Origin: an alpha proteobacterium SCGC AAA028-C07
Lineage (GTDB): Bacteria > Pseudomonadota > Alphaproteobacteria > Pelagibacterales > Pelagibacteraceae
Assembly: GCA_000419465.1 (NCBI GenBank)
Contig: ATTB01000001.1
Coordinates: forward strand, 62,001 to 126,000
Reading direction: 5' to 3'
DNA length: 64,000 nt
Part shown: positions 47,810 through 53,041 of the stretch, one piece after another
How positions within the stretch are numbered: position 1 is the stretch's first letter
Layout of the letters: each line of letters begins with the position of its first letter
Made by a program: the position numbers and the translations under genes
The notes under the pieces: generated by a model
The model's input: the letters and a program-made list of their open reading frames with translations, nothing else
Told to the model about the DNA's origin: nothing
The model's database searches: none

Positions 47810-47839
47810 TTGACTTTTAACATCGCTTAAAGGCATATT
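47810..47839 (+). promoter_or_regulatory. gcv operon promoter
   Basis: TTGACT (47810-47815) and CATATT (47834-47839) are 18 bp apart and lie just upstream of the glycine riboswitch, so transcription would begin near 47846. The -35 hexamer is identical to those before mraZ and metF. Confidence 0.6.
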
Positions 47840-47845
47840 GGATTC

Positions 47846-48012
47846 GTAGGGAAGAGACCTCTCGTAGGCACCGAAGGAGCAACAGCCCAGGAAACTCTCA
47901 GGTAAAAGGACCTTACAATTATATAACTCTGGAAAGAAAGTTTAAAACTTCACCGACGGAGCAACACTCTCAGGTAAACATACAGATGGGCTGCTTAAAT
48001 TAGGAGTTATAT
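47846..48012 (+). promoter_or_regulatory. tandem glycine riboswitch
   Basis: Two glycine aptamers lie in series. The first (about 47846-47915) has AGAGACC...GGCACCGAAGGAGCAA and ACTCTCAGGTAAAAGGAC. The second (about 47925-47990) has CTGGAAAG, CACCGACGGAGCAA and ACTCTCAGGTAAACATACAGA. These are the conserved core strings of the class. ATATAACTC (47921-47929), at the base of the second aptamer, is perfectly complementary to GAGTTATAT (48004-48012), which overlaps the gcvT Shine-Dalgarno GGAG (48003-48006). Glycine riboswitches on gcvT are generally ON switches that let glycine induce its own breakdown. Confidence 0.93.
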
Positions 48013-48019
48013 AATATTT

Positions 48020-49144
48020 ATGAGTGCGGCTAATACAGAATTAAAACAAACTGGCAAAACCTCGCTATACGAGTTTCATAAAAATTCTGGCGCTAAACTT
48101 GTAAATTTTGCAGGTTATGAAATGCCCATTCAATATCAAGATGGGATTATTCAAGAGCATACACATACAAGAAATTCTATAGGAATTTTTGACGTTTCGC
48201 ACATGGGTCAATTAAAGATAGAATGTAGTAGCAGTATTTTTCCTTATCTTGAAAAAATAATTCCATTAGACTTTTCCGCAATTGAAAATAATCAATCTAA
48301 ATATTCATTTCTACTAAATGACAAAGGTGGAATCGAAGATGATTTAATTGTAACCAAGGTTGATACAGGAATTAAGATAGTACTGAATGCAGCATGCAAA
48401 GATAATGACGCGAAAATTATTAAAGATTCAATAGGCGAGGGTTTTACTGCCGTTCTAAGAGATGATTTGTCGTTAATTGCAATTCAAGGACCCAAAGCAG
48501 TAGATGCTATGGAAAAAATTTTTAAAGATATTTCAAAACTTAATTTTATGTACGGAAATTATTTTGAGTATAATAAGAAAAAAATTTTTATAACAAGATC
48601 AGGGTATACTGGCGAGGATGGTTTTGAAGTTTCTATAAAAAATGAAGATGTTCAAGATTTAACTCAAGATATTATGAGAGTGTCTGATGCAAAACTTATA
48701 GGGCTTGGTGCAAGAGACTCATTAAGATTAGAAGCCGGACTTTGTTTATATGGTCATGATATTGATACCAAAACTACTCCGGTTGAAGGTGCTTTGTCTT
48801 GGGCAATTCCTAAAACAAAAAAAGAAAAAGGTGGATTTTTAGGAGACAAAATAATTTTAGATCAAATTAAAAATAAGCCTAAAAAAATTAGGGTTGGAAT
48901 AAGACCGGAAGGTAAAATTATTGCAAGAGAGGGCACAAGGATTTTCTCAAACGATCAAAAAGAAATAGGACATGTAACTAGTGGAGGTTTCGGCCCAAGC
49001 GTGAACGGACCGATTGCCATGGGATATGTTGATTATGATCAATCAAAAGAGGGTACGAAAGTAATCTTGAAAGTTAGAGAAAATATGGTGCAAGGAGTTG
49101 TTAGCAAACTTCCTTTTTATAAAAAAAGTTACGTAAAAAATTGA
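48020..49144 (+). CDS. gcvT: glycine cleavage system T protein (aminomethyltransferase)
   Basis: GcvT releases ammonia from the aminomethyl-lipoyl group on GcvH and passes the one-carbon unit to tetrahydrofolate. The N-terminal SLYEFHKNSGAKLVNFAGYEMPIQY and the DVSHMGQ motif (about residues 60-66) are typical. RSGYTGEDGFEV near 195, GLGARDSLRLEAGLCLYGHDID near 233 and VTSGGFGPS near 323 are the remaining signatures. The length of 374 residues fits. Its leader holds the tandem glycine riboswitch, and a Shine-Dalgarno GGAG is 13 bp upstream. Confidence 0.96.
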   Translation: MSAANTELKQTGKTSLYEFHKNSGAKLVNFAGYEMPIQYQDGIIQEHTHTRNSIGIFDVSHMGQLKIECSSSIFPYLEKIIPLDFSAIENNQSKYSFLLNDKGGIEDDLIVTKVDTGIKIVLNAACKDNDAKIIKDSIGEGFTAVLRDDLSLIAIQGPKAVDAMEKIFKDISKLNFMYGNYFEYNKKKIFITRSGYTGEDGFEVSIKNEDVQDLTQDIMRVSDAKLIGLGARDSLRLEAGLCLYGHDIDTKTTPVEGALSWAIPKTKKEKGGFLGDKIILDQIKNKPKKIRVGIRPEGKIIAREGTRIFSNDQKEIGHVTSGGFGPSVNGPIAMGYVDYDQSKEGTKVILKVRENMVQGVVSKLPFYKKSYVKN

Positions 49145-49146
49145 AT

Positions 49147-49527
49147 ATGACTGAAAAAAAATACTCAAAGAAACATGAATGGCTGGAAGTAAATGGTAGC
49201 GTTGCAACAGTTGGAATTACAGCGCATGCAGCTTCTCAGTTAGGAGATATTGTATTTGCAGAAGTCCCTGCTGCAGGAAAATCATTTAAAAAAGACGATC
49301 CAGCTGCAGTTGTTGAATCTGTAAAAGCCGCAAGTGATGTTTATTCACCACTTACAGGAGATATCAAAGAGTCCAATCAGGCAATCGTTACAGATCCATC
49401 ACTTGTAAATAAAGATCCAGAAAGTTCAGGTTGGTTTTTTAAAATTACAATAAAAGATCAGAATGAACTTAAAGACTTAATGAACAAGAGTGATTATGAA
49501 AAATATGCAACAGAAAACCCAAATTAA
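49147..49527 (+). CDS. gcvH: glycine cleavage system H protein
   Basis: GcvH carries the lipoyl arm that shuttles the aminomethyl group between GcvP, GcvT and the lipoamide dehydrogenase. The start at ATG 49147 gives 126 residues beginning [15 protein letters not shown]; a TTG at 49141 would add two residues and is less likely. The lipoylated lysine is K60 in [17 protein letters not shown], the exact family context. The gene follows gcvT by 2 bp and touches gcvP at the stop codon. Confidence 0.96.
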
Positions 49528-52388
49528 TGAAAGATCTAACTAATTCTAAAGAATTTATAGGACGTCATATAGGTCCATCAGATGAGCATATCAAAACTAT
49601 GCTTTCTTATTTAAATGTTAAATCATTAGACGAGCTGATTAAAAAAATTGTCCCAGATAGAATTTTAGAAAAAGAAGAGTTAAAATTAGATGATGCTATT
49701 TCAGAAGATAAAGCTCTTAAATTGTTAAAGCAAATTGTTCAAAAGAATAAAATTTATAAAAATTATCTAGGAGCGGGTTATTATGGAACCATCACTCCAA
49801 ATGTCATTTTAAGAAACATTTTAGAGAACCCAGGCTGGTATACTGCTTACACACCTTATCAGCCAGAAGTTGCTCAAGGAAGATTAGAGATGTTATTAAA
49901 TTTCCAGCAAATGATTATTGATCTTACAAAAATGGATATTGCAAATGCATCATTACTTGACGAAGGAACGGCGGCAGCTGAAGCCGTAGGTTTATGTCAA
50001 AGAATTAATCCTGATAATTTAAATAAAATTTTTATTTCTAACAAATGTAATGTCCAAACAATTGATGTTGTCAAAACTAGAGCTGAACCCTTTGGTCTTG
50101 AAATTATTGTAGGAGACAATGATGAGGATCTTACAAAGCTAGATAGTTTGTTGTGTGCAATCGTTCAATATCCAGATTCTCTTGGCAGTATTTATAACTT
50201 AAAAGAAATTATTGATATTATTCATAATAAAAAAGGCAAAGCCATTGTTGTGACTGATTTACTTGCCTTAACATTAATTAAGCCGCCCGGAGAAATGGGT
50301 GCTGATATTGTAGTTGGAAATTCACAAAGATTTGGTGTGCCTATGGGTTACGGCGGACCTCATGCGGCTTTTTTTGCAACAAAAGATGAATTCAAAAGAG
50401 CAATGCCAGGAAGGATTATTGGCGTATCGGTTGATAGAAAAAATAAACAAGCTTTGAGAATGGCTCTGCAAACTCGTGAGCAACATATAAGAAGAGAAAA
50501 GGCAACAAGCAATATTTGCACCGCTCAAGCTTTACTTTCTATTATGGCCGTAGCTTATGGAATTTATCATGGACCGGAAGGTATTAAAAAAATAGCAGAA
50601 CGTACTGCTGGAATTGCAAATTTATTTGCAGAAGCAATTCAAAAAAATAATTTTAAAATAGTTTCTCAAAATTATTTTGATACCGTAACTATATTTACAG
50701 GAGATGAAACAGAGGAATTTTATAAAAAAGCTTTAGCTAAAAAAATTAATATTAGAAAATTAAAAGATTTAATAAGTATTTCATTTGATGAAACTTCAGA
50801 AATTAGTGATCTAAAAGATCTATTCGAAGTATTTGGTATTAATGAAAAAATATCTAAAGAGACTAAAATTGATCAGATTTCAAAAGATTTTTTAAGAACA
50901 TCAAAATATTTAACACACGAAGTGTTTAATTCTTACCATTCTGAAACTGAAATGCTTCGTTACTTAAAGCGTCTAGAAGATAAGGATATTGCATTAAATA
51001 GATCAATGATTGCTTTAGGTTCTTGCACTATGAAATTAAACGCAGTTGCAGAGATGATTCCGGTAACTTGGCCTGAATTTGGAGCGCTTCATCCATTTGC
51101 TCCAGTAGATCAGGCAGAAGGTTATCATTTTATGTTTAATGATTTATCAAAAATGCTTTCTGAAATTACAGGTTTTAGCGGGATTTCCCTTCAACCTAAT
51201 GCAGGGGCTCAAGGAGAATATGCAGGTTTAATGGTTATTAGAAAATATCATTTATCTAGAGGTGAAAAAAATAGAAATGTTTGCCTTATTCCAAGCTCAG
51301 CTCACGGTACAAATCCAGCAAGCGCGCAAATGGCTGGAATGAAAGTTGTGGTTGTCAATTGCGATAAAGATGGCAATGTTGATTTTGAAGATCTTAAAAA
51401 GAAAGCGGCCGAACACTCAAAAGATTTAGCGGCTTTAATGGTAACATACCCATCAACTCATGGAGTGTTCGAAGAACAAATTACTGATATTTGCAAAATT
51501 ATTCATGACAACGGCGGACAGGTTTACATGGATGGAGCAAATCTAAATGCACTTGTTGGAATTGCAAAGCCAGGAAAATTTGGACCTGATGTTTGTCATA
51601 TGAATTTACACAAAACATTTTGCATTCCTCATGGCGGAGGAGGGCCAGGAATGGGTCCTATAGGAGTTAGTAAACATTTAGAGAAATTTTTACCAAACCA
51701 TCAGGTTATAAAACAAAATTCAGGACCAAGCACAGGCATGGGTGCAGTGTCAGCTGCTCCATGGGGAAGCGCTAGTATTCTTCCAATCTCATGGATGTAT
51801 ATAAAAATGATGGGGGCAGAAGGCCTTAAAAAAGCAACGCAAGTTGCAATATTAAGCGCAAACTACATGTCAAAAAAATTATCAGAACAATTTAGCACTT
51901 TGTATAAAGGTAAAAATGGGTTTGTTGCTCATGAGTGTATTATTGATTTAAGATCTATTAAGACAGAGACAGGAATAAGCGAAGAAGATATTGCGAAAAG
52001 ATTAATTGATTATGGTTTTCACGCACCAACTATGTCTTGGCCAGTTGCTGGAACTTTGATGGTTGAGCCTACAGAGAGTGAGAGCTTAAATGAATTAAAT
52101 AGATTTTGTGAAGCATTAATTAATATTAAAAAAGAAATTAATATGGTTAAAAATAAATTATTTGATACGAATGACAATCCACTTAAAAATGCTCCACATA
52201 CATTCCTTGAACTTTCAGCAGATGTTTGGGAGCACAAGTATACAAGGGAACAAGCGGCATTTCCGCTACAGTATTTAAAAGCTAATAAATACTGGTCCCC
52301 AGTTTCAAGAGTAGATAATGTTTATGGAGATAGAAATCTTGTTTGTAGTTGTCCAAGTTTAGAGAGTTATAGAGAGGAAGCTGCCTAG
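49527..52388 (+). CDS. gcvP: glycine dehydrogenase (decarboxylating), P protein
   Basis: GcvP decarboxylates glycine and loads the remaining aminomethyl group onto GcvH. It is the single-chain form of 953 residues, with fused N- and C-terminal halves. The PLP lysine is K696 in [32 protein letters not shown] marks the N-terminus, and [19 protein letters not shown] opens the second half. The start codon shares its A with the gcvH stop. Its TAG stop at 52386-52388 is followed at once, in the same frame, by a small ORF. Confidence 0.97.
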
Positions 52389-52547
52389 TTGAAGCTAGAA
52401 TTGCTTTATAATCCTGGCAATGTGCTTTGCGATTTTCTCAAAATAAAAGATGATCATAAATTTATTTTAAGAGTTTTTGTAAACCTAACTTATTACGGAC
52501 ATATATTAGCAGCGATTTCATTATTTTATGTTAAGGCAACTAGTTAA
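52389..52547 (+). CDS. small hydrophobic protein between gcvP and tspO (unassigned)
   Basis: A 52-codon ORF begins with TTG immediately after the gcvP TAG stop and ends with TAA 2 bp before tspO. The predicted protein opens (M)KLELLYNPGNVLCDFLKIK and has a likely membrane stretch FVNLTYYGHILAAISLFYV near its end. A Shine-Dalgarno-like AGAGAGGAAG (52371-52380) lies 8 bp upstream of the TTG, inside gcvP, so independent initiation by coupling is credible. It is in the gcvP frame, so UAG readthrough is an alternative but weaker explanation. I do not recognise the family. Confidence 0.6.
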   Translation: MKLELLYNPGNVLCDFLKIKDDHKFILRVFVNLTYYGHILAAISLFYVKATS

Positions 52548-52549
52548 TA

Positions 52550-53041
52550 ATGAAAAAAAATAAATCAGAATCTAAAGATTATCTAAGTTTATTTACAATT
52601 GTTGTAGCTACTTTTTTAATAACTTTTCCAGCAGGATTTGTAACAAGAGCAGCATTAGATCCTTGGTATTATAATTTAATAAAACCAGCATTTAATCCAC
52701 CCAATTGGATTTTTGGACCAGTGTGGACACTACTTTACATAATGATGTCAGTTGCAGCTTGGCTTGCTTATAAAAAAAGCAAACATTCAAATAAAATTTT
52801 AACAGTATATTTTGTTCACTTATTAATTAACGCAAGTTGGAGTTATGTATTTTTTTATTATAAGAAAATTTTTCTTGCGAGTTTTATAATCTCAATCATT
52901 ATTTTTTTTATTTTATATTTGATGGTTTTGTATTCTAAGTACAGCAAGCCTTCCGTTTTATTAATGCTTCCTTATTTTGCCTGGTCGACGTTTGCTCTAT
53001 ATTTAAATAGCACAATTTATATTCTTAATTCGACCTATTAA
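52550..53041 (+). CDS. tspO: TspO/MBR family membrane protein
   Basis: TspO is a five-helix membrane protein that binds tetrapyrroles and affects porphyrin, stress or pigment responses in bacteria. The motifs PWYYNLIKPAFNPPNWIFGPVWTLLYIMMSVAAWL (about residues 37-71) and LINASWSYVFFYYKKIFLA are the core signature. The length of 163 residues is usual. An N-terminal stretch of about 13 charged residues precedes the first helix. It is the last gene of the gcv transcript unit and overlaps the converging prenyl synthase gene by 17 bp. Confidence 0.92.
   Translation: MKKNKSESKDYLSLFTIVVATFLITFPAGFVTRAALDPWYYNLIKPAFNPPNWIFGPVWTLLYIMMSVAAWLAYKKSKHSNKILTVYFVHLLINASWSYVFFYYKKIFLASFIISIIIFFILYLMVLYSKYSKPSVLLMLPYFAWSTFALYLNSTIYILNSTY

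Follow-up and report, generated by a model that had tools for sequence, protein, structure and literature searches.

CydX and KdpF exemplify small single-pass proteins that serve larger membrane proteins as accessory subunits or regulators. TspO is a five-helix membrane protein. Its standing as a tetrapyrrole-binding protein is established, as set out in the available text of two papers (PMC4926414, PMC13185565). The available portion of a review of TspO partners (PMC8243069) contains neither of the terms 'small protein' and 'operon'. A search of open-licence literature returned no paper describing the gene reported here; it returned one paper on Pelagibacter small proteins or sORFs, which in its available part is about HIMB5 intergenic regions.

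Here, we describe a small gene that lies between gcvP and tspO in a 64,000-nucleotide stretch of DNA (the window) and compare it with its relatives. The comparison makes it near certain that the small frame is a real, strongly conserved protein-coding gene under purifying selection. There is an even chance, in our estimation, that it encodes a lineage-specific single-pass membrane microprotein that is co-translated with TspO and works with it. The comparison gives good evidence for the gene and little for its function.

Locus architecture

In the window, the TTG start codon (52389) of the small gene directly follows the gcvP TAG (52386-52388) in the same frame, and the tspO ATG (52550) begins after a 2-bp gap beyond the small-gene TAA (Table 1). 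A preliminary description of this DNA had reported a 52-codon TTG frame in just this position, and its coordinates, frame and length are confirmed. The Shine-Dalgarno-like stretch that it placed 8 bp upstream of the TTG is likewise present, as AGGAAG. Because this stretch doubles as coding sequence for the GcvP C-terminus (EEAA), taken alone it speaks only weakly for a ribosome site. An AGGAAG-like motif is retained in one locus that lacks gcvTHP (L009/L031) and is weak or absent in some others.

Table 1. Features of the small-gene locus, in window coordinates
Feature	Position	Strand	Basis or product
Tandem glycine riboswitch, 5' of gcvT	47835..47989	+	RF03166, 81.1 bits, E 5.5e-16; gathering score 110 not reached
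gcvT (presumed name)	48020..49144	+	ORF; matching gene order in relatives
gcvH (presumed name)	49141..49527	+	ORF; matching gene order in relatives
gcvP, glycine dehydrogenase, 953 aa	49527..52388	+	PF02347 + PF21478 (Pfam)
AGGAAG, Shine-Dalgarno-like, 8 nt 5' of small-gene TTG	52375..52380	+	sequence
Small gene, 52 aa, TTG start, TAA stop (52545-52547)	52389..52547	+	probable single-pass membrane protein
tspO (TspO/MBR family), 163 aa, 2 bp 3' of small gene	52550..53041	+	PF03073 E 8.5e-39

The names gcvH and gcvT are presumed from gene order. At the other end of the locus, tspO (+) and a polyprenyl-synthase-like gene (-) overlap at their 3' ends by 17 bp (53025-53041). Some 10 kb of AT-rich window DNA contains 52 frames of at least 30 aa, including spurious ones of 47-78 aa. 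The length of the small gene is within chance for such DNA, and the case for it therefore rests on comparison.

Sequence relatives of the small protein

When 101 related genomes were searched at the protein level, 24 gave a match. Twenty-three of these are strong (E <= 2.3e-19) and are confined to four SAR11 genera, g1, g7, g9 and g12 (Fonsibacter and HIMB114-like); the names 'subclade III' and 'IIIa/IIIb' are used within SAR11. The window itself belongs to the Fonsibacter group of SAR11, near-identical loci coming from Candidatus Fonsibacter, HIMB114 and other Pelagibacteraceae or Pelagibacterales. The 24th match (G025, E 0.006) was taken as chance. An order-wide profile scan found strong matches in 15 of 397 genomes, all from the same four genera, and weak matches in five g4 genomes (E 0.0016-0.0087), which were rejected as chance. 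Beyond g1 and g9, scans of the class and the phylum gave weak matches only, in 13 of 289 genomes (E 0.0037-0.1) and 3 of 299 genomes (E 0.0017-0.0061), respectively. The weak profile matches in other genera, in the class and in the phylum were all regarded as chance, since they cover short stretches and many have internal stops, as read for a part of them.

Alignment of the 23 sequences contains 17 invariant columns among the 52 window positions: E4, Y7, N8, P9, G10, N11, C14, L17, D22, H23, F25, I26, R28, F30, N32, Y35 and G37. Cys14 and His23 are thus invariant, and His38 is nearly so. Residues 4-38 are nearly fixed as a whole; mean entropy is 0.56 over residues 1-20, 0.30 over 21-38 and 1.50 over 39-52, such that conservation peaks at residues 21-38 and drops sharply after 39. 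Helical periodicity in this conservation was not found above shuffles (p 0.33-0.52).

Selection acts on one reading frame. Paired with the window sequence, its seven closest Fonsibacter relatives give dN/dS values of 0.03-0.07, L013 gives 0.20, and farther relatives give 0.05-0.18 where dS is unsaturated. Nine Fonsibacter sequences yield a pN/pS of 0.12 for the small-gene frame; the five alternative frames yield 0.83, 2.83, 1.55, 0.33 and 3.11. The 23 sequences hold no stop in the small-gene frame and 83-118 in each other frame. The start falls at column 1 in 22 of the 23 loci (TTG 10, ATG 8, GTG 4), and the remaining locus (L015) has an in-frame ATG three codons before that column. The marks of a genuine small gene, namely purifying selection in one frame, absence of stops and a conserved start, are all found here. 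Conservation in 23 of 101 relatives, a pN/pS of 0.12 and the lack of stops (n=23) together place the small gene beyond chance. The preliminary description had called for a search of relatives and a selection check, with loss of the amino acid sequence or pervasive frameshifts and stops counting against the gene; that pattern is absent.

Predicted fold and family searches

The AlphaFold model (15 sequences; pLDDT 89.4, pTM 0.63) contains helices at residues 4-7, 9-17 and 21-51. A confident lone helix of this kind is not proof of membrane insertion. The best 19-mer hydropathy is 1.45 in the window protein, which is borderline, and spans 1.36-1.98 among three further members, so that these values are borderline to moderate. 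The membrane helix named as likely in the preliminary description is plausible, although the hydropathy of the window protein is marginal. On balance, insertion of the small protein in the membrane is likely. The conservation pattern would fit a functional part, made up of a cytoplasmic or surface segment and the helix's first half, with a plain membrane anchor behind it.

Family searches gave no assignment. No Pfam family, PF03073 included, matched the 52-aa window protein at E <= 1; over the 23 members, nothing fell below E 0.029, and the matches at that level were of plant or nitrilase type. NCBIfam and PHROGs gave nothing convincing, a sequence-profile search of the PDB gave no match, and Foldseek against the PDB gave none at E <= 10. 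In viral contigs, 17 pattern matches were found and 0 were confirmed. With 52 aa, one long helix and no match to the TspO/MBR profile (PF03073), the small protein is not itself a TspO.

Independence from gcvP

Among the 16 loci where the small gene adjoins gcvP, it lies in the gcvP frame in five and in another frame in 11. At the out-of-frame loci, the small-gene start most often overlaps the gcvP stop (TAATG or TAGTG).

Ten g1 (Fonsibacter) genomes carry the small gene, and gcvP is adjacent in three of them (G000, G002, G004). In the other seven (G001, G003, G007, G008, G009, G010, G011), gcvTHP is missing at the locus and proC lies directly upstream; the loci with this loss are L026, L027, L029, L030, L031, L035 and L013. 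The GcvP C-terminal domain was not found in six of these seven genomes. In the seventh (G010), a GcvP match with 56% identity to the window GcvP lies on a short contig (L153, G010:C23), which looks like contamination from another phylum, its other genes being foreign to SAR11 by eye. Several of the gcv-less genomes are incomplete; G003 is 96% and G008 94% complete, and in every case the deletion can be recognised from synteny.

The deletions left traces. A riboswitch remnant lies upstream of the small gene in six of the seven gcv-less intergenic regions aligned (scores 38-115, versus shuffle maxima of 31-34); L013, from G003, scores 23, not above its own shuffles. A scan of 10 loci returned no glycine riboswitch at E <= 1. 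The remnant at L031 is longer than, and unlike, the single scar common to five other gcv-less loci, so at least two gcv deletions appear to have occurred at this locus, and probably three counting G003. The small gene and tspO were spared in every one. A possible gcvP tail in L031 did not score above the 95th percentile of its shuffles and was not counted.

In a tree of tspO and the polyprenyl synthase, the window and G002, which both carry gcv, branch from within a set of gcv-less genomes (supports 85-98); this suggests either many gcv losses or regain by recombination. The existence of gcv-bearing g1 genomes agrees with the first LD12 isolate, LSUCC0530, in which the glycine cleavage pathway is retained according to the available text of its source (PMC6018831).

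Linkage to tspO

Directly 3' of the small gene, tspO is found in 22 of 23 loci, the 23rd (L012) being a contig end. Measured from the small-gene stop to the closest probable start of tspO, the spacing is -4 to +5 nt. The proposal in the preliminary description that the small protein belongs to a gcv-tspO unit is thus supported in part: the tie is to tspO, and the gene stays after gcvTHP is lost.

TspO itself is more widely distributed, scoring above cut-off in 49 of 101 genomes. Of the tspO-bearing genomes in g1, g7, g9 and g12, 22 of 23 have the small gene; in other genera, a convincing relative was found in 0 of 26, and in the 22 of those 26 whose region upstream of tspO was read, no such small gene is present. 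The upstream neighbours of tspO in these genera differ, and are mostly a short-chain-dehydrogenase-like gene (named by eye). Descent of the small gene from one that separates gcvP and tspO in other genera of SAR11 was also considered and rejected; an unfiltered profile search of 1280 frames from 18 loci of those genera yielded short frames alone, none of them better than E 0.12.

At loci L146-L152, from other SAR11 genera, gcvP and tspO flank a gene cluster that does not occur at the window site. By eye, its genes look like those for FAD amine oxidase, DUF1365, cyclopropane synthase, lipoprotein and short-chain dehydrogenase. Read in this way, the cluster resembles the singlet-oxygen/furan fatty acid cluster of Rhodobacter.

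The one exception within the four genera is G006 (Fonsibacter), where the gcvP TAG is followed at once by a TTG-started tspO, without the small gene. In the gcvP tree (midpoint root), G006 joins the other g1 sequences (support 100) and falls within a g1, g7, g9 and g12 group (support 74). Because of this placement, loss of the small gene in G006 is the preferred reading, being simpler than separate gains. Comparison of TspO columns that are fixed in gene-bearing genomes and changed in G006 gave four scattered substitutions, mostly common to outgroups.

Discussion

The gene's independence from gcvP, its adjacency to tspO, its lineage restriction and its selection as a protein can be read directly from the aligned sequences. 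We propose that the small gene is co-transcribed and translationally coupled with tspO. Its product would be a 52-residue single-pass inner-membrane protein made together with TspO, and could work with TspO as an accessory subunit or regulator. It would do so through its near-invariant N-terminal half (residues 4-38), placed at the surface of the membrane. Where gcv is present, the two genes lie at the end of the riboswitch-headed gcvTHP operon; where it has been deleted, they persist alone. Co-expression with tspO is very likely. Functional partnership, to which gene position points, is tentative, with chances that may fall somewhat short of even.

Partnership with TspO is only slightly more likely than a separate function in the membrane. 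The product may be a real membrane microprotein with its own function, sharing an operon with tspO in a compact genome, and we give this an appreciable probability, clearly below even. All coding evidence fits it equally. Most SAR11 TspO proteins have no such companion, and G006 retains tspO but lacks the gene; since a convincing relative is also absent from the 26 tspO-bearing genomes of other genera, TspO can do without the small protein. In streamlined genomes, adjacency of the two genes may be accidental. However, tspO is the one constant neighbour in all four genera and through no fewer than two, and probably three, separate gcv deletions, and the two genes overlap or nearly overlap at stop and start, which argues against an unrelated function.

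Two further explanations are much less probable. Membership, beyond the reach of sequence search, in a known small-subunit family would be compatible with a protein of about 50 residues, which offers little search power, and with the fast divergence of small membrane subunits; this is nevertheless improbable, given that Pfam (23 members), NCBIfam, PHROGs, the PDB profile search and Foldseek gave nothing convincing, and the class and phylum scans weak matches only (13/289 and 3/299 genomes). A leader peptide or coupling frame that controls tspO expression, its peptide unimportant in itself or an arrest peptide, would account for the tight coupling to tspO, but amino acids rather than bases are conserved, and a nearly fixed stretch at residues 4-38 with a variable C-terminus is the reverse of the arrest-peptide pattern; we regard it as very improbable. 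Finally, a chance frame or former gcvP extension, the latter raised in the preliminary description as a stop codon once separating or extending gcvP, has a negligible probability: the gene does directly follow the gcvP stop in frame in the window, but it neither keeps the gcvP frame (another frame in 11 of 16 gcvP-adjacent loci) nor depends on gcvP, whose loss it survives, and it is under strong protein-level selection.

If the small protein is a TspO partner, it would offer a way to approach what TspO does in bacteria, a matter still under dispute. A more specific form of the partnership, in which the small protein is a new lineage-specific TspO subunit that influences the binding of tetrapyrroles, or signalling, in subclade III of SAR11, its Cys14, His23 and His38 touching the ligand, is unlikely; if true, TspO would be a two-component complex in these bacteria. 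The gene adds a conserved small protein, unmodelled until now, to the inventory of bacteria that are among the most abundant in fresh and coastal waters. Repeated gcv loss that spares the small gene and tspO, together with one genome in which the small gene alone is absent, constitutes a natural experiment on its role.

Set beside CydX and KdpF, the small protein differs in having no sequence relation found to them, in the putative nature of its partnership with TspO, and in that much of its conservation precedes the hydrophobic stretch. Its constant downstream neighbour belongs to the TspO/MBR family (PF03073), which is widespread in the SAR11 family searched (49/101 genomes). In size and layout there is a likeness: like proteins of the CydX and KdpF kind, the small protein has about 50 residues and one predicted long helix, and its gene adjoins and couples with that of a multi-pass membrane protein, here TspO.
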